A stretch of DNA of 64,000 bases from Gaiellaceae bacterium. GTDB taxonomy: Bacteria; Actinomycetota; Thermoleophilia; Gaiellales; Gaiellaceae. The DNA lies in the NCBI GenBank assembly GCA_026002995.1, contig BPGK01000001.1:992001-1056000 (forward strand). The letters run 5' to 3'. Shown here in pieces: positions 971-9,366 of the stretch (position 1 is its first letter; the number at the start of each line of letters is the position of its first letter). The notes beneath the pieces were generated by a model, which saw only the letters and a program-made list of their open reading frames with translations, had not been told where the DNA came from and ran no database searches. Both the position numbers and the translations under genes were made by a program.

Positions 971-2032
971 ATGAGCCCTCGCGCGCAGCGGATCGTCGGC
1001 TTCGTCGCCTTCGGCGCTCTCGTTGTCGTCGTTGTCGTGCTACCGACGCTCGTCTCCGACTTCAAGGCGCAGCAGTACGCGTACGTCGGCATCTACTTGA
1101 TCGCCCTCCTCGGCCTGAACATCCTCACGGGCTACACAGGGCAGATCTCGCTCGGGCACGGCGCCTTCATGGCCATCGGCGGCTACACGACGGCCATCCT
1201 CATGGTCGGAAACGAGCAGTTCGGCGGGCCGATCGCGGGTGGGATGCGGGACGTCTGGACGCTCCCGTTCGCAGCGCTCGTAGCGGGGCTCGTGGGGCTC
1301 CTCTTCGGGCTCCCGGCGCTGCGCCTCTCCGGCCTCTACCTCGCGCTCGCGACCTTCGCCATCGCCGTTGCCTTCCCGTCGGCGGTGAAGCGATTCGCCG
1401 AGTTCTCGGGTGGTGGTCAAGGGATCAACCTGTTCGGCACGGAGCAGCTCACGGGCTCGAGCGCGCAGCGGGTCGAGATCCTCGGCTTCACGCTCAGCTA
1501 CAACGACTGGCTCTACGCCCTCTCCTGGTCGGTCGCGCTGCCCGCCTTCGTCGTGGCCTGGCTGATCGTGCGCGGACGCACGGGGAGGGCGCTGCGGGCG
1601 GTGCGGGACAGCGAGACGGCCGCCGTCTCCTCCGGAGTCAGCCTCGCGCGCTACAAGACGCTCGCCTTCGGGGTGAGCGCGGCCTACGCGGGACTCGCGG
1701 GAGGGCTCTTCGCGATCGCGAACACCTTCGTCAACCCGGACACGTTCCCCATCGCGCTCTCGATCTTCCTCCTCATCGGCATCGTGGTCGGCGGTCTCGG
1801 TGGGCTCTCCGGGCTCGTCTTCGGCGCGATCTTCGTCTACTTCCTGCCGCTGTGGGCGCAGGGGGAGGACCTCGGGTCGATCCTGCCGGACCGAGTCATC
1901 GAGGAGACCACGAAGCCGGGCGGCCCCGCGATCGTCTACGGGGTCGTCCTCATCCTCCTCATGTTCCTGATCCCGAACGGCGTGAGCGGGCTCTTCCGCC
2001 GCGTCGGAGCGTTCCTCGCCCGACGCCGCTGA
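971..2032 (+). CDS. livM: Branched-chain amino acid ABC transporter permease LivM
   Basis: A 353-residue polytopic membrane protein. It shows the LivM family hallmark GLNILTGYTGQISLGHGAFMAIGGYT near residues 48-73 and a conserved loop RALRAVRDSETAA around residue 208. It pairs with LivH as the second permease half. The ATG at 971 lies 4 bases after the livH stop. The C-terminus ends with the usual NGVSGLFRR motif. No periplasmic binding protein gene for this system is in the window, so it must lie upstream or elsewhere. Confidence 0.92.
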   Translation: MSPRAQRIVGFVAFGALVVVVVVLPTLVSDFKAQQYAYVGIYLIALLGLNILTGYTGQISLGHGAFMAIGGYTTAILMVGNEQFGGPIAGGMRDVWTLPFAALVAGLVGLLFGLPALRLSGLYLALATFAIAVAFPSAVKRFAEFSGGGQGINLFGTEQLTGSSAQRVEILGFTLSYNDWLYALSWSVALPAFVVAWLIVRGRTGRALRAVRDSETAAVSSGVSLARYKTLAFGVSAAYAGLAGGLFAIANTFVNPDTFPIALSIFLLIGIVVGGLGGLSGLVFGAIFVYFLPLWAQGEDLGSILPDRVIEETTKPGGPAIVYGVVLILLMFLIPNGVSGLFRRVGAFLARRR

Positions 2033-2070
2033 CGGTCGCCGCAGCAGGCGCGCGTGCGACGATACGCGTC

Positions 2071-4431
2071 GTGCCTCCGCTCGACGACCTCCTCGTCGCT
2101 CCGCTCGACGACCTCCTCGCCGAGGCGCGCCGGTTGCGGCGCGGCCGTCTCGTCACGTACTCGCCCAAGGTCTTCATCCCGCTCACGACGCTCTGCCGCG
2201 ACGTGTGCGGCTACTGCACGTTCGCCCGCCCGCCGCGCAGGGGAGAGCGCGCGTACCTGACGGAGGAGGAGGTGCTCGCGATCGCGCGCGCGGGCGCGGC
2301 TGCGGGCTGCCGCGAGGCGCTCTTCACCCTCGGGGACAAGCCCGAGCTCCGCTACGCGCTGGCGAGGCGCGAGCTGCGCGCGCTCGGCTGCGAGACGACG
2401 CTCGAGTACCTCGCCCGCTGCGCGAAGCTCGTGCTCGAGGAGACGGGCCTGTTGCCTCATCTGAATCCGGGCGTGCTGACGCGCGAGGAGCTCGAGCTGC
2501 TGCGCCCCGTCTCGGCCTCGATGGGGATCATGCTCGAGACGACCGCTGACCGGCTCGGCGAGCGCGGCGGCCCGCACTGGGCCTCGCCGGACAAGGTTCC
2601 GGCACGCCGTCTCGAGACGATCCGACTCGCGGGCGAGCTCGCGATCCCCTTCACGAGCGGGATCCTGATCGGCATCGGGGAGACGCGCGAGGAGCGGATC
2701 GACGCGCTGCTCGCGCTCCGGGCGCTCGGCGAGGAGCACGGGCACGTACAGGAGGTCATCGTCCAGAACTTCCGCGCGAAGCCCGGGACGCGCATGGCGT
2801 CGCACCCCGAGCCGCCGCTCGAGGAGCACCTGTGGACGATCGCCGTCGCGCGCATCCTCCTCGGGCCCGACTGGCACGTGCAAGCGCCACCGAACCTCGC
2901 CTACGACGACTTCCCGCGCCTCCTCGACGCCGGCATCGACGACTGGGGCGGTGTCTCGCCCGTCACGATCGACCACGTGAACCCGGAGGCGCCCTGGCCC
3001 GAGGTCGCGCGGCTCGCGGAGGCGACCCGGAGCCGCGGCCTCGAGCTCGCGCCTCGGCTCGCGCTCTACCCCGAGTTCGTCGCCGACCTCGAGCGCTGGG
3101 TCGACCCGGCCGTCGCGCCCTCGGTCCGCCGCGCATCCGACGCGAGCGGACTGGCGCGCGACGACGCCTGGGCGCCGGGGGAGCCTGGCGCGGTTCCGTT
3201 CCTCGTGCGGCGCGACGCGGCGCCGCTCCACCTCTCCGGCGACGAGCTCGGGGAGGACGAGGTCACGCGGCTCCTCGAGGCACGAGGCGGGGAGGCGCAG
3301 CGCGTCTTCGCCGCCGCCGATCGCCTCCGACGCGAGACCTGCGGCGACGAGGTGACGTACGTGGTCACCCGGAACATCCAGTACACGAACGTCTGCTACT
3401 TCCGCTGCGGCTTCTGCGCCTTCTCGAAGGGGAAGCTCGCTGCGAGCCTGCGCGGCTCCCCCTACCTCGTCCCGCTCGAGGAGATCGGCCGCCGGGCGCA
3501 GGAGGCGTGGGAGCGAGGCGCGACCGAGGTCTGCCTCCAGGGCGGGATCCACCCGGCCTTCACGGGCGACTACTACGCCGACGTCGTACGAGCGGTAAAG
3601 GAGGCCGCGCCCGGGATCCACGTGCACGCGTTCTCTGCGCTCGAGATCTGGCAGGGAGCGGCGACGCTCGGGCTCGGGCTCGAGGAGTACCTGAGCCGAC
3701 TGCGCGACCTCGGGCTCGGCTCGCTTCCCGGCACCGCGGCCGAAGTCCTCGACGACGACGTGCGGCGGATCATCTGCCCGGACAAGGTGACGACGGAGCA
3801 GTGGCTCGCCGTCCACGACGCCGCCCACCGCGTGGGTCTCCGCTCGAACGTGACGCTCATGTTCGGACACGCGGACACCCCGCGGAGCTGGGCGCGCCAC
3901 CTCCTGCGCGCTCGGGAGCTCGCGCGCCGCACGGGCGGCTTCACCGAGTTCGTGCCTCTGCCCTTCGTGCCCATGGAGGCGCCCATGTACCTCCAGGGAC
4001 GCGCGCGCCGCGGCCCCACCTTCCGCGAGACGCTCCTCGTCCACGCCGTCGGCCGGCTCGCGCTCCATCCCTGGATCCAGAACGTGCAGGCCTCCTGGGT
4101 GAAGCTCGGGCCCGAGGGCGTTCGCGAGGCGCTCGCAGTGGGCGTCAACGATCTCGGCGGGACGCTCATGAACGAGTCGATCTCGCGCTCCGCCGGCGCC
4201 GCCTTCGGGCAGGAGCTCTCGCCGGAAGCGATGGAGGGCCTCATCCGCTCTGCCGGCCGGGTGCCGCGTCAGCGCACGACGCTGTACGGCGAGCCGCCGG
4301 AGGAGCGCGTGAGAGCCTCGTTCGGCGCGCCGCCGCTCGCCGAGCCGGTGAGCCTGCCCGTCAAGGACGCGGGCCTTGTGGCCCCGCCGCGACTCGTCCG
4401 TCCGGGCCTCGCCGCGAGCCTCCCGAGCTAG
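2071..4431 (+). CDS. fbiC: Bifunctional FO synthase (CofG-CofH fusion, FbiC type)
   Basis: A 786-residue fusion of two radical-SAM enzymes. Together they make FO, the deazaflavin core of coenzyme F420, from tyrosine and 5-amino-6-ribitylaminouracil. The CofG half is about residues 1-370 and has the cluster motif C42-x3-C46-x2-C49 (CRDVCGYC). The CofH half is about 400-786 and has C442-x3-C446-x2-C449 (CYFRCGFC). Fusion of both halves is the actinobacterial arrangement, whereas archaea and cyanobacteria keep them separate. The reading frame stays open far upstream into livM, but the GTG at 2071 gives a sensible N-terminus (MPPLDDLL), 38 bases after livM, and I chose it. Other F420 genes (cofC, cofD, cofE) are not in the window. 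Confidence 0.93.
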   Translation: MPPLDDLLVAPLDDLLAEARRLRRGRLVTYSPKVFIPLTTLCRDVCGYCTFARPPRRGERAYLTEEEVLAIARAGAAAGCREALFTLGDKPELRYALARRELRALGCETTLEYLARCAKLVLEETGLLPHLNPGVLTREELELLRPVSASMGIMLETTADRLGERGGPHWASPDKVPARRLETIRLAGELAIPFTSGILIGIGETREERIDALLALRALGEEHGHVQEVIVQNFRAKPGTRMASHPEPPLEEHLWTIAVARILLGPDWHVQAPPNLAYDDFPRLLDAGIDDWGGVSPVTIDHVNPEAPWPEVARLAEATRSRGLELAPRLALYPEFVADLERWVDPAVAPSVRRASDASGLARDDAWAPGEPGAVPFLVRRDAAPLHLSGDELGEDEVTRLLEARGGEAQRVFAAADRLRRETCGDEVTYVVTRNIQYTNVCYFRCGFCAFSKGKLAASLRGSPYLVPLEEIGRRAQEAWERGATEVCLQGGIHPAFTGDYYADVVRAVKEAAPGIHVHAFSALEIWQGAATLGLGLEEYLSRLRDLGLGSLPGTAAEVLDDDVRRIICPDKVTTEQWLAVHDAAHRVGLRSNVTLMFGHADTPRSWARHLLRARELARRTGGFTEFVPLPFVPMEAPMYLQGRARRGPTFRETLLVHAVGRLALHPWIQNVQASWVKLGPEGVREALAVGVNDLGGTLMNESISRSAGAAFGQELSPEAMEGLIRSAGRVPRQRTTLYGEPPEERVRASFGAPPLAEPVSLPVKDAGLVAPPRLVRPGLAASLPS

Positions 4432-4940: not shown

Positions 4941-5542
4941 CGGAAGGCGAGCGGCAGGCGCAGGAGGAGGCCTGGGAGCCGCCGCCGGCTCTCGGCGAGC
5001 GCGCGCGAGAGCGCGGCGGCGGCTTCCGGCCCGTGCAGTCCCTCGCCGTGCCCGACGAGCAGGTGCTCGGGCTCGTAGTCGGCGAGCGCCCGGGGCGGGG
5101 TCAGCCGCAGGAGCAGGTGGACGCCGAGCGGCGCCCTCCCGCCGGTGAAGAAGCGGTTCGTGCCGACCGCCTCGGCGACGACGAGCGTCCGTCGCTCCGG
5201 CCACCAGAGGGCCGTCTCCTGCCAACGGCGGCGGCGCTCGAGCGCGAGACACTCGAACGGGCTGTCCGGGACCTCGTCGGGCGCCACGAGGTGCGGCACG
5301 CCCAGGCGTCCGGCGATCGCGGCGCAGTCGCGGTTGTGGCGGTCGAGGAGCTGGAGGATCGCCGTCGGCCGCCCGAGCTCGAGCGCGCGCTCGATCGCTG
5401 CGGGCCAGTCCACGGGGTCGACGAGCCAGATCCGTCCGTCTGCTGCCAGGGCATGCGACGTGCGCGTGAGCGGCTCCTCGACGAGCCAGGAGAAGCCCTC
5501 CTCGCCGCGCTCGTCGCAGTACGTGAACGCCCGATCCGTCAC
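4937..5542 (-). CDS. Degenerate metallo-beta-lactamase-fold protein, metal site apparently lost
   Basis: A 201-residue soluble protein. Its order of segments recalls a small MBL-fold hydrolase: WLVDP near residue 40, a hydrophobic strand then a loop at the HxHxDH position, and LLVGHGEGLHG near the end like the LLPGHG motif of the family. However, the metal-binding loop reads LDRHNRDC (residues 66-73), so two of the three histidines are replaced and only H69 and D72 remain. The GTG start at 5542 overlaps the lysA stop (GTGA), so the two are translationally coupled. Function unknown; the fold assignment is my inference from motif spacing. Confidence 0.55.
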   Translation of the reverse strand: MTDRAFTYCDERGEEGFSWLVEEPLTRTSHALAADGRIWLVDPVDWPAAIERALELGRPTAILQLLDRHNRDCAAIAGRLGVPHLVAPDEVPDSPFECLALERRRRWQETALWWPERRTLVVAEAVGTNRFFTGGRAPLGVHLLLRLTPPRALADYEPEHLLVGHGEGLHGPEAAAALSRALAESRRRLPGLLLRLPLAFR

Positions 5543-6798
5543 GTCTCTGAGCGGAGGAGGTCGTCGACCGTCTCCCGACACCGGACGAGACGAGCCTCGC
5601 CGCCGCGCACGAGCACGGCGGCAGGGCGCGGAACGCCGTTGTAGGTCGAGCTCATCGCGAGCGTGTACGCGCCGGTCGCCGGGACGGCGAGCAGGTCGCC
5701 GCGGCGCGGGGAGGGCAGCCGGACGTCGTCGATGAGGACGTCGCCGGACTCGCAGTGCATCCCCGCGACGCTGGCGAGCTCGTCGGGTTGCTCGTCGGCG
5801 CGGGCGGCCGAGAGGGCCGTGTAGCGGGCGCCGTAGAGCTGCGGGCGCGGGTTGTCGGACATGCCTCCGTCGATCGCGACCCATGTGCGCTCCGGCAGGC
5901 GCTTCACCGCGCCGACGCGGTAGAGCGTCACGCCCGCCCGGCCGACGAGGCAGCGACCAGGCTCGAGCCAGATCGCCGGCTGCGGCAGGCCGAGGTCGCG
6001 GAAGGCCGCGCGTGCCGTCGAGGCTGCGACCTCCGCGAGCGCGACGGCGTCGGGGACGTCCTCGTCCGGGTGGTGGCGGATGCCGAAGCCGCCGCCGAGG
6101 TCGGCGACGCGCGCCTCCCAGCCGAGCTCGTCGCGACAGGAGGCCGCGAACGCAGCGAGTCGTAGGATCGTCTCCGCTTGGGCGGTGAAGTCGGGGAGCT
6201 GCGAGCCGACGTGCACGTGGACGCCGAGGACGTCGAGCCCCCGCGCGAGCGCGTCGCGAACTGCCCGCAGCGCCTCGTCGGGCGGCAGCCCGAACTTCGA
6301 CCCGTGGTGGCCGGTGACGATCGCCTCGTGCGTGTCCGCGTCGACCCCGAGGGTCACGCGCACGAGAGCTCGCTCGACCCCGGCTGCGGCGGCGAGGGCG
6401 ACCTCGTCGGGGGCGTCCACCACGATGGGCGCGCGCAGGCGGGCCGCCTCGCCGAGGAGGGCTTCGTCCTTGTTGTTACCGTGGATGACGAGCTCGTCGC
6501 CGCCGAGCCCGGCCGCGACGGCGAAGGCGAGCTCGCCGGCAGAGGCCACGTCCGCGCCGAGGCCGTCCTCGCGGAGGAGCCGCAAGACGGCGACGTTGGG
6601 GAAGGCCTTCGTCCCGTAGAAGACCCTGCCGTCCGTCCCTACCGCGTCTCGAAGCGACCGCGCCCGCTCGCGAACGGTCTCTTCGCAGTAGACGTAGAGC
6701 GGCGTCCCGAAGCGGTCGGCGAGCTCGCTCGCTGCGAGGCCGCCGAGCACGAGCTCACCTCCCTCGATCCGAGCCGAGAGCGGGAACAGGTCGAGCAT
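5539..6798 (-). CDS. lysA: Diaminopimelate decarboxylase
   Basis: A 419-residue PLP enzyme that decarboxylates meso-diaminopimelate to lysine, the last step of lysine synthesis. The PLP lysine sits in FYGTKAFPN (K64). The glycine-rich and phosphate-binding region GGGFGIR, the EPGR motif and the CESGD catalytic motif that completes the dimer active site are all visible. The ATG at 6798 gives the usual N-terminal length. The gene is divergent from leuS, and both share the 147-base intergenic region. The downstream MBL-like gene overlaps its stop and is probably co-transcribed. Confidence 0.95.
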   Translation of the reverse strand: MLDLFPLSARIEGGELVLGGLAASELADRFGTPLYVYCEETVRERARSLRDAVGTDGRVFYGTKAFPNVAVLRLLREDGLGADVASAGELAFAVAAGLGGDELVIHGNNKDEALLGEAARLRAPIVVDAPDEVALAAAAGVERALVRVTLGVDADTHEAIVTGHHGSKFGLPPDEALRAVRDALARGLDVLGVHVHVGSQLPDFTAQAETILRLAAFAASCRDELGWEARVADLGGGFGIRHHPDEDVPDAVALAEVAASTARAAFRDLGLPQPAIWLEPGRCLVGRAGVTLYRVGAVKRLPERTWVAIDGGMSDNPRPQLYGARYTALSAARADEQPDELASVAGMHCESGDVLIDDVRLPSPRRGDLLAVPATGAYTLAMSSTYNGVPRPAAVLVRGGEARLVRCRETVDDLLRSET

Positions 6799-6815
6799 CG
6801 CGAGATCTTGCCTGT

Positions 6816-6821
6816 TACGCT
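6816..6821 (+). promoter_or_regulatory. Probable -10 element (TACGCT) of the leuS leader transcript
   Basis: TACGCT lies 9 bases before the ATG of the leader peptide at 6831, so the predicted transcript would start at or just before that ATG. No convincing -35 is visible, as at other TANNNT sites in the window. This is an inference from spacing only. Confidence 0.45.
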
Positions 6822-6830
6822 TTCGATCGC

Positions 6831-6851
6831 ATGACGCGGCTTCTTCCGTAG
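6831..6851 (+). CDS. Putative leuS leader peptide MTRLLP with tandem rare Leu codons
   Basis: A seven-codon ORF: ATG ACG CGG CTT CTT CCG TAG. Two adjacent leucine codons are both CTT, which is uncommon in this genome where CTC and CTG dominate. It sits between a -10-like element and a hairpin plus intrinsic terminator, all upstream of leucyl-tRNA synthetase. That is the textbook layout of a ribosome-mediated transcription attenuator: low charged tRNA-Leu would stall the ribosome on the CTT codons. There is no separate SD, so the peptide would be leaderless. Very short ORFs arise by chance; the supporting argument is the combination of codon identity, position and downstream terminator. Confidence 0.6.
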   Translation: MTRLLP

Positions 6852-6855
6852 CGTA

Positions 6856-6889
6856 GGAACCGCAGCGCGGCGCGAGCCGCGACGGTTCC
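6856..6889 (+). promoter_or_regulatory. Attenuator hairpin in the leuS leader
   Basis: Outer stem GGAACCG (6856-6862) pairs with CGGTTCC (6883-6889). The inner stem 6866-6871/6876-6881 is closed by a GCGA (GNRA-type) tetraloop. Bases 6870-6876 (GCGCGAG) can alternatively pair with 6899-6905 (CTCGCGC), the 5' side and loop of the downstream terminator. A mutually exclusive antiterminator is therefore possible. Which structure wins under stalling is not derivable by eye. Confidence 0.55.
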
Positions 6890-6894
6890 GCCGG

Positions 6895-6918
6895 GCCTCT
6901 CGCGCGAGAGGCTTTTTT
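6895..6918 (+). terminator. Intrinsic terminator in the leuS leader
   Basis: GCCTCTCG (6895-6902) and CGAGAGGC (6905-6912) form a GC-rich stem followed by six T at 6913-6918. It lies 27 bases before the leuS ATG. The gene on the other side (lysA) reads away, so the terminator can only serve a transcript that starts in this intergenic space, i.e. the leuS leader. Confidence 0.85.
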
Positions 6919-6945
6919 GTCCCCCCAGTCGAACAGTGCGAGGCG

Positions 6946-9366
6946 ATGGAGCGGTACGACCCACAGGCGATCGAGGCGAAGTGGCAGGAGGTCTGGGCCC
7001 AGGAACGGGCGTTCGAGGTGCCGAACCCGAGCCCTGAGGAGCGCGAGCGGAGCGCGAAGTCGTACGTCCTCGAGATGCTCCCCTACCCCTCGGGGACGCT
7101 CCACATGGGGCACATGCTCGTCTACACGATCGGGGACGTCGTCACGCACTTCCGGCGTCGCAACGGGATGCGCGTGCTCCACCCGCAGGGGTTCGACTCG
7201 TTCGGGCTGCCGGCGGAGAACGCCGCGATCAAGGAGGGCGCGCATCCGCGGCTGACGACGGAGCGCAACATCGCGCACATCCGCCGCTCGATGCGCCGGA
7301 TCGGGTGGGCCATCGACTGGTCGCGTGAGCTCTCGACCCACGAGCCCTCCTACTACCGCTGGCAGCAGTGGCAGTTCCTGCGCTTCTACGAGCGCGGGCT
7401 CGCGTACCGCAAGGGCGCGCCGGTGAAGTGGTGCCCGGTCGACCAGACGGTCCTCGCGAACGAGCAGGTGCACGACGGGCGCTGCGAGCGCTGTGGCGCG
7501 GAGGTCGTCTCCCGCGTGATGGAGCAGTGGTTCTTCCGCATCACCGACTACGCGCAGGCGCTGCTCGACGACCTCGAGACCGTCGACTGGCCGGAGTCGA
7601 TCAAGGCGCGCCAGCGGAACTGGATCGGGCGCTCGGAGGGGGCGGAGATCCTCTTCCGCATCGAGGAGTGGAACGAGGACGTCGCCGTATTCACCACCCG
7701 TCCGGACACGCTCTACGGGGCCACCTTCTTCGTCCTCGCGCCCGAGCACGAGCTCGTACGGCGGATCGACTCCGAAGAGGTGCAGACGTACGTGCAGCGC
7801 GCAGCGGCGAAGAAGACCGAGGAGCGGGCGACCGCAGTCGAGAAGACGGGTGTCTTCACCGGCCTGCACGCGGTCAACCCCGTGAACGGGGAGCGGCTGC
7901 CCGTCTACGTCGCCGACTACGTCCTCGCCGACTACGGGACGGGCGCGATCATGGCCGTGCCCGCGCACGACCAACGCGACTTCGACTTCGCGCGCGCGTT
8001 CGGTCTCCCCGTACGGCAGGTGGTGCGTCCGCGCGCAGGCGCGGTGGACGAGGGTGCCGCCTACCTCGAGCACGGCGAGGACGCGGTGCTCGTGGGCTCC
8101 GGTGAGTTCGACGGTCTACCTGCCTCCGAGGGCGGTCGACGGATCGTCGAGAAGCTCGCCGCCGAGGGCCGCGGCCGCTTCGCCGTCAACTACCGGCTTC
8201 GTGACTGGGGCTTCTCGCGCCAGCGCTACTGGGGGTGCCCGATCCCGATCGTCTACTGCGGGGCCTGCGGCATCGTGCCGGTACCCGAAGACGAGCTCCC
8301 CGTCGTCCTCCCGGAGATCGAGGACTACAAGCCCAAGGGTCGGCCGCCGCTTGCGCAGGTCGAGGAGTGGGTGAACGTGTCCTGTCCGACCTGCGGAGGC
8401 CCGGCGCAGCGCGAGACGGAGACGATGGACACCTTCGTCGACTCCTCCTGGTACTTCCTGCGCTACTGCGACGCGCGGAACGACCACGCGCCGTTCGATC
8501 GCGAGGCGGTCGACTACTGGAACCCAGTCGACCTCTACATCGGGGGCGTCGACCACGCGACGATGCACATGATCTACGCCCGCTTCTGGGTCAAGGTGCT
8601 GAACGACATGGGGCTCGTCGGCTTCCGCGAGCCGTTCGCTCGCTTCTTCTCGAACGGCTGGGTCACGCTCGGCAAGTCGAAGATGTCGAAGCGGGCCGGG
8701 AACATCGTCGGCCCGGACGACTTCGTCGAGCGCTACGGCGCCGACGCCTGCCGACTGAACATCCTCTTCCTCGGCCCCGCCGACGAGGACATGGAGTGGA
8801 CCGAGACGAGCGTCGAGGCGATGGAGCGCTTCTTGCGCCGGCTGTGGCGGATCGTGAACGAGGTGGCCGAGCGCGCGCCGCAGGGCCCGCCAGCCGGCGG
8901 GCCGCTCGCGCGCAAGGCGCACTGGGCGATCGCGAAGGCGACCGACGACATCGGGCGTCGCTTCGCTTTCAACACCGCGATCGCCGCGGTCATGGAGCTC
9001 GTGAACGAGCTCTCGCACGACCGCGCCGGCCCGGACTCCCGCCTCGCCGCGGAGACGGCCGTCTCGCTGCTCCAGCCGTACGCCCCGCACGTGACCGAGG
9101 AGTTGTGGTCGAGGCTCGGGCACGAGCGGCTGTGGGAGACGCCGTGGCCCGTCGCCGACCCGGCGCTCCTCGAGCGGGAGACGGTCGAGGTCGTCGTTCA
9201 AGTGAACGGGCGGATTCGCGATCGCCTCCACGTCGCCCCGGGGACGAGCGAGGACGAGCTCGTCGCGCTGGCGCGCGCGTCCGCGCGCGTGCAGGCGTAC
9301 CTCGACGGGGGAGAGCCGCGCCGGGTCGTCGTCGTGCCCGACAAGCTCGTCAACTTCGTCGTCTGA
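6946..9366 (+). CDS. leuS: Leucyl-tRNA synthetase
   Basis: An 806-residue class Ia synthetase that charges tRNA-Leu. It has the HIGH-type motif HMGH at residues 53-56 and the KMSKS-type motif KMSKR at 579-583. The CP1 editing domain lies between, with the conserved GTGAIMAVPAHDQRD segment around residues 325-340, and a C-terminal anticodon-binding region follows. Length is normal for the bacterial enzyme. The ATG at 6946 gives MERYDPQAIEAKWQ, the standard N-terminus. Expression is probably controlled by the leader and terminator just upstream. A tRNA-Leu(CAA) lies at 35.1 kb. Confidence 0.97.
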   Translation: MERYDPQAIEAKWQEVWAQERAFEVPNPSPEERERSAKSYVLEMLPYPSGTLHMGHMLVYTIGDVVTHFRRRNGMRVLHPQGFDSFGLPAENAAIKEGAHPRLTTERNIAHIRRSMRRIGWAIDWSRELSTHEPSYYRWQQWQFLRFYERGLAYRKGAPVKWCPVDQTVLANEQVHDGRCERCGAEVVSRVMEQWFFRITDYAQALLDDLETVDWPESIKARQRNWIGRSEGAEILFRIEEWNEDVAVFTTRPDTLYGATFFVLAPEHELVRRIDSEEVQTYVQRAAAKKTEERATAVEKTGVFTGLHAVNPVNGERLPVYVADYVLADYGTGAIMAVPAHDQRDFDFARAFGLPVRQVVRPRAGAVDEGAAYLEHGEDAVLVGSGEFDGLPASEGGRRIVEKLAAEGRGRFAVNYRLRDWGFSRQRYWGCPIPIVYCGACGIVPVPEDELPVVLPEIEDYKPKGRPPLAQVEEWVNVSCPTCGGPAQRETETMDTFVDSSWYFLRYCDARNDHAPFDREAVDYWNPVDLYIGGVDHATMHMIYARFWVKVLNDMGLVGFREPFARFFSNGWVTLGKSKMSKRAGNIVGPDDFVERYGADACRLNILFLGPADEDMEWTETSVEAMERFLRRLWRIVNEVAERAPQGPPAGGPLARKAHWAIAKATDDIGRRFAFNTAIAAVMELVNELSHDRAGPDSRLAAETAVSLLQPYAPHVTEELWSRLGHERLWETPWPVADPALLERETVEVVVQVNGRIRDRLHVAPGTSEDELVALARASARVQAYLDGGEPRRVVVVPDKLVNFVV

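Follow-up and report, generated by a model that had tools for sequence, protein, structure and literature searches.

The window, a 64,000-nucleotide stretch of DNA from a Gaiellaceae bacterium, belongs to a genome represented by one 2.62-Mb contig. Two divergent genes flank the region of interest. lysA, encoding diaminopimelate decarboxylase, is located upstream on the minus strand at 5539-6798 (NCBIfam TIGR01048 equivalog, 407 bits). leuS, encoding leucyl-tRNA synthetase, is located on the plus strand at 6946-9366 (NCBIfam TIGR00396 equivalog, 978 bits; Pfam LeuRS editing domain), and its closest named relative, with 82% identity, is from a Gaiellaceae MAG; we term the family Gaiellaceae-like. 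The intergenic region, 6799-6945, contains on the plus strand a promoter element, a very short ORF with leucine codons, a hairpin (hairpin A) and an intrinsic terminator. The original prediction read these elements as an attenuator that controls leuS through a leucine-containing leader peptide. Further upstream, a single plus-strand ORF at 1852-4431 resembles fused CofG and CofH domains (FO synthase), as judged by eye only.

The promoter element is the extended -10 sequence TGTTACGCT (6813-6821), composed of the predicted TACGCT at 6816-6821 and TGT in front of it. We extracted leuS upstream regions from about 70 relatives. In all 41 homologous leaders a TAnnnT box is found 7-11 nt ahead of the start codon, compared to a background of about 1% in flanking sequence, and TG is present at the extended -10 position in 30 of them. 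The predicted leader ORF, MTRLLP, is present at 6831-6851 (ATG ACG CGG CTT CTT CCG TAG; six amino acids and a stop). There is no space for a Shine-Dalgarno sequence, suggesting that the ORF is probably read from a transcript that is leaderless, or nearly so. The spacing from the -10 box is compatible with a leaderless ORF at the putative start in 41/41 family leaders.

The tandem codons CTT CTT at 6840-6845 are the candidate regulatory codons. Tandem leucine codons are found in 40 of the 41 leaders and Leu-Ala-Leu in the remaining one, so that no leader in this set lacks leucine codons. The relatives keep the pattern M-x-(Q/E)-L-L-x-stop, and the residues beside the leucines are variable. The leader leucine codons are CTT (53), CTC (21) and CTG (20). 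Since both the third codon positions and the neighboring residues vary, it is the amino acid that is conserved, beyond mere base sequence. CTT accounts for 56% of leucine codons in the leaders, whereas within the leuS genes of this set of genomes the figure is 2.7%. In the window genome its share is 4% in leuS and 6% in one neighboring ORF, in agreement with its earlier description as rare. The E. coli leu leader likewise uses rare leucine codons. A sub-group of the family (L024, L025, L036 and L061) has 11-codon leaders, for example MENVLLIDGQG, with the stop codon within hairpin A as in Streptomyces and the distance from leucine codon to hairpin roughly held at 14-20 nt. Fusion of the leader to leuS by frameshift or read-through was considered and rejected, as every frame is closed in at least one relative.

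Hairpin A, with the arms GGAACCG...CGGTTCC and a GCGA (GNRA) loop, is found at 6856-6889. Its folding energy is -23.8 kcal/mol (z -4.0), and that of hairpin A together with the terminator is -40.7 kcal/mol (z -3.4). It contains a semi-conserved internal loop, CGAACGCGGC. The terminator at 6895-6918 consists of the stem GCCTCTC/GAGAGGC (6895-6912) closed by a GCGC loop and the run TTTTTT (6913-6918). It was also picked up by a terminator scan, and the sequence places the leuS ATG, at 6946, 27 bases past the T run. Both structures are thus present as the original prediction described them. In nearly all relatives the terminator likewise has the arms GCCTCTC and GAGAGGC around a short loop, with a run of T after them. 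The motif is not a genome-wide repeat: across the 2.62-Mb genome CCTCTC/GAGAGG occurs three more times, in no case with a T run behind it, and these copies are apparently within coding sequence and are not terminators.

Pairing was examined by comparing the energies of cognate arms with those of arms exchanged between species; the permutations ignore relatedness and serve as a guide only. The arms of hairpin A covary, as none of 2000 permutations equaled the cognate fit. The terminator arms also prefer their own partners (permutation fraction 0.009). RNAalifold applied to the same alignment retrieves both structures. The alignment of relatives thus retains the leucine codons together with a covarying hairpin and terminator, and the attenuator reading for leuS is well supported as an interpretation of the sequence.

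Additional evidence comes from the distribution of the unit. A covariance model made from 35 leaders found it in 72 of 103 family genomes, and in 28 of the 35 high-quality ones. This recurrence indicates that the unit did not arise by chance. The element order is constant in the family: TAnnnT, 7-11 nt, leader ORF, hairpin and terminator. Within the order, the covariance model search found the unit essentially limited to the Gaiellaceae-like family. The one strong match elsewhere (G064, family f2) lies at the end of a contig and could represent contamination. Weak matches in L195 and L192 are tRNA-like sequence, and another in L191 has no terminator; none is a leader. Neither leader nor terminator is found in eight family genomes whose leuS start could be read, L033 among them, where what looks like a motif match is a chance hit beside the start; these absences count against the attenuator reading.

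A simpler reading is that the region consists of a plain promoter, a spacer and a terminator that ends an upstream or antisense transcript, the leucine ORF being incidental. The shortness of the ORF would fit this. However, the leader ORF and the terminator are jointly present or jointly absent in nearly all genomes, which together with the tandem leucines and the CTT enrichment makes an incidental ORF very improbable. Moreover, lysA diverges, so the terminator receives no transcription from a neighboring gene. One genome, L022, retains the leucine codons and the terminator without hairpin A; it represents a naturally occurring deletion in the switch and is another point against the proposed attenuator. 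Its leader ORF (GTG CAG GAT CTG CTG ...) has no stop and continues through the terminator for 26 codons.

We also searched other actinobacterial families with the covariance model and by scanning leuS upstream regions. The same layout is found before leuS in at least six further families (f16, f18, f28, f37, f42, f51 and f60), and also before leuA (f20) and ilvB (f47). Three leaders in f28 encode exactly MRAVRLLLSEPR, identical to the leuL2 leader of Streptomyces lividans. In L189 (about 1501-1579, minus strand), leuA follows a leaderless-looking leader, MSQNLLLT and a stop, with a GC hairpin and a CCTCTC terminator in the same layout. The Streptomyces leuA leader has been described without such a terminator (PMC8079986).

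The spacing of the elements is informative. In the window, the 5' arm of hairpin A starts 16 nt past the first leucine codon. This distance has a median of 16 nt in the 41 family leaders (sd 2.2), and is 14 nt (range 13-17) in 12 leaders from other families or operons. Distances of 14-16 nt should be close to the leading edge of a ribosome that holds the leucine codon in its A site, judging by toeprint distances. The stop codon, in contrast, has no constant distance to hairpin A, the values running from -16 to +5 among 53 leaders. The gap between hairpin A and the terminator is usually 0-5 nt, with medians of 4 nt in the family and 0.5 nt in other families and operons. In the same 53 leaders hairpin A ends -1 to 6 nt from the terminator, with the exception of L030, in which another hairpin is predicted.

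In silico masking is consistent with a ribosome-responsive hairpin. Hairpin A forms with the ribosome placed at the leucine codons and is largely lost with the ribosome at the stop codon (index 1.1 and 0.18, respectively). Four leaders from other families behaved similarly upon folding, with hairpin A complete in the first position and destroyed in the second; in these leaders hairpin A and the terminator adjoin and have no base in common. The geometry and folding models thus give good support to the sensor half of the proposal, in which the leucine codons and a stalled or advancing ribosome would determine the folding of hairpin A. Partition-function folding gave a probability of about 1 for the terminator with the ribosome in either position. 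Since the terminator forms in both, there is no classical mutual exclusion, and the link between hairpin A and antitermination rests on a steric argument.

The lack of mutual exclusion bears on a classical attenuator, in which a stretch of the leader or hairpin A would pair with the 5' arm of the terminator upon ribosome stalling. Two variants are an alternative pairing of 6870-6876 with 6899-6905, put forward in the original prediction, and an overlap at the boundary GCC as in Corynebacterium glutamicum ilvBNC, a precedent backed by mutations (PMC11857589). The 7-bp complementarity of the first variant does exist in the window. However, relatives are no richer in it than shuffled sequences, and as an antiterminator it would be specific to the window, with no conservation. 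An overlap of hairpin A with the boundary GCC was rejected, as it was not better than shuffled flanks (54/100). In a trp-type test, no base-paired mutual exclusion of antiterminator and terminator was found. Compared to swapped partners, no covariation was detected between the leader and the 5' arm of hairpin A, between the 5' arms of hairpin A and the terminator, or between their 3' arms. The same was true for the leader and the terminator 3' arm, the upper part of hairpin A and the terminator, and the upstream sequence and each of these elements.

The pairing between the leader and the terminator 3' arm is stable, averaging -9.8 kcal/mol. In the minimum-energy folds of several relatives, calculated in the absence of a ribosome, the leader leucine codons pair with GAGAGGC, which would favor a classical mechanism. 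The terminator arm is nearly invariant and this pairing is therefore beyond covariation testing; a stalled ribosome would mask it. No pairing examined shows cognate preference or enrichment in relatives, the terminator stays formed with the ribosome at leucine, and hairpin A and the terminator adjoin without overlap in other families. Taken together, a classical attenuator is unlikely, though it is the strongest of the alternatives.

We also considered a T-box or a protein-binding leader, for example autoregulation by LeuRS on hairpin A, in place of ribosome control. The semi-conserved internal loop of hairpin A could suit such a mechanism, and leuS T-boxes occur in other actinobacterial families. 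However, no T-box match reached the gathering score in the window and none was found close to leuS at E<=10, and an Rfam search at E<=10 returned weak chance matches only. In addition, a T-box or protein-binding leader leaves unexplained both the leucine codons and their fixed distance to the hairpin. We regard it as the least probable of the readings considered. In three other actinobacterial families (f15, f27 and f58), a tRNA-Ala(GGC) gene is found inside the leuS T-box leader, between the T-box stem regions and the antiterminator AGGGTGGTACCGCG. The genes are at 203-277 in L249, 208-282 in L276 (minus strand) and 304-378 in L278 (minus strand); the T-box scores of L249 and L278 are under the Rfam gathering threshold. 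In L219 (f27), tRNA-Ala(GGC) likewise sits just upstream of leuS.

We propose that the unit is probably a ribosome-mediated transcription attenuator of leuS, in which hairpin A would act as a steric antiterminator. RNA polymerase would initiate at the leader ATG or a few bases upstream of it, and a ribosome would engage the 5' end of the new RNA. With ample Leu-tRNA, the ribosome would pass CTT CTT to the stop codon and cover the 5' arm of hairpin A. The terminator would then form alone, and transcription would end ahead of leuS. When charged tRNA-Leu is scarce, the ribosome would stall at the first or second leucine codon, with its leading edge not quite reaching hairpin A, which could then fold fully and allow read-through into leuS. 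A steric action is proposed because hairpin A and the terminator have no common base pairs. A working terminator is expected to have its base inside the RNA exit channel of the polymerase, where a folded helix joined 0-5 nt away on the 5' side would not fit. If true, the switch would operate with no alternative base pairing.

The effect of hairpin A could also have the opposite sign. Hairpin clusters have been argued to strengthen termination, and tandem hairpins were reported to be better terminators than single ones (PMC8355165). Hairpin A formed upon stalling would then reinforce termination, and leuS expression would drop when leucine is short. Such a response is contrary to the one expected for a leucyl-tRNA synthetase and to the leader-peptide attenuator model (PMC13236596), and we consider it improbable, about as much so as the incidental ORF. 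The proposed steric antitermination may, more tentatively, extend to actinobacterial attenuators of leuS, and some of leuA and ilvB: these could commonly use a non-overlapping antiterminator hairpin located 0-5 nt from the terminator, with a 14-16 nt ruler, a generalization that we hold to be possible rather than probable.

The regulation of leucyl-tRNA synthetase by a leader peptide was originally described as unusual. This did not hold up, as leuS leaders with a terminator have been described in Streptomyces (PMC1262725, where candidate attenuators were first proposed; PMC8079986), and further actinobacterial families have them too. In S. lividans, leuL2 (MRAVRLLLSEPR and a stop codon) precedes leuS; it was mapped as leaderless, with a hairpin and then a run of uridines behind it (PMC8079986). 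The window unit is similar to it in having a leucine leader ORF (leaderless there, putatively so here), a hairpin and a U-tract terminator directly before leuS. The first leucine codon is 14 nt from the hairpin in leuL2 and 16 nt in the window. The leader has 12 codons in leuL2 compared to six in the window, its stop codon is inside the 5' arm of the hairpin rather than 4 nt before it, and the gap between hairpin and terminator is 0 nt instead of 5 nt. Beyond the leucine codons and the style of the terminator, the two have no recognizable sequence similarity. On the sequence evidence, the window unit is a real, conserved and functional-looking leucine attenuator, new and very small, of a kind known from Streptomyces. 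Six codons, and about 90 nt from the start codon to the last T, make it the smallest example found in this comparison. With it, control of a tRNA synthetase by a leader peptide reaches a family of actinobacteria that are mostly uncultured.

Other systems have individual features in common with the unit. The 'fast' attenuator of C. glutamicum ilvBNC has a short leader whose start codon lies one nucleotide away from the beginning of the transcript (PMC11857589). Its antiterminator hairpin also lies beside the terminator, and a boundary trinucleotide is common to both. Unlike the window unit, it controls a branched-chain biosynthesis operon, and a three-nucleotide overlap and an additional H1 hairpin have been proposed for it; by analogy, it is the nearest published counterpart of the proposed steric step. 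Mycobacterial ilvB1 similarly has a uORF with regulatory codons and a terminator, and a ribosome at its stop codon masks the antiterminator. It differs in its 166-nt leader, its mutually exclusive hairpins and its amino acid biosynthesis gene (PMC13236596). Leaderless short ORFs with regulatory codons are also found among the mycobacterial polycysteine ORFs (Canestrari 2020), which, as cited in PMC13236596, are attenuators; the codons there are for cysteine, and the citation is to translation attenuation, not to intrinsic termination. The T-box (RF00230) also senses tRNA charging before an aminoacyl-tRNA synthetase gene, but binds the tRNA directly. The comparison suggests that actinobacterial leucine attenuators keep a set spacing from codon to hairpin and place their hairpins side by side instead of in competition, unlike the textbook trp model.
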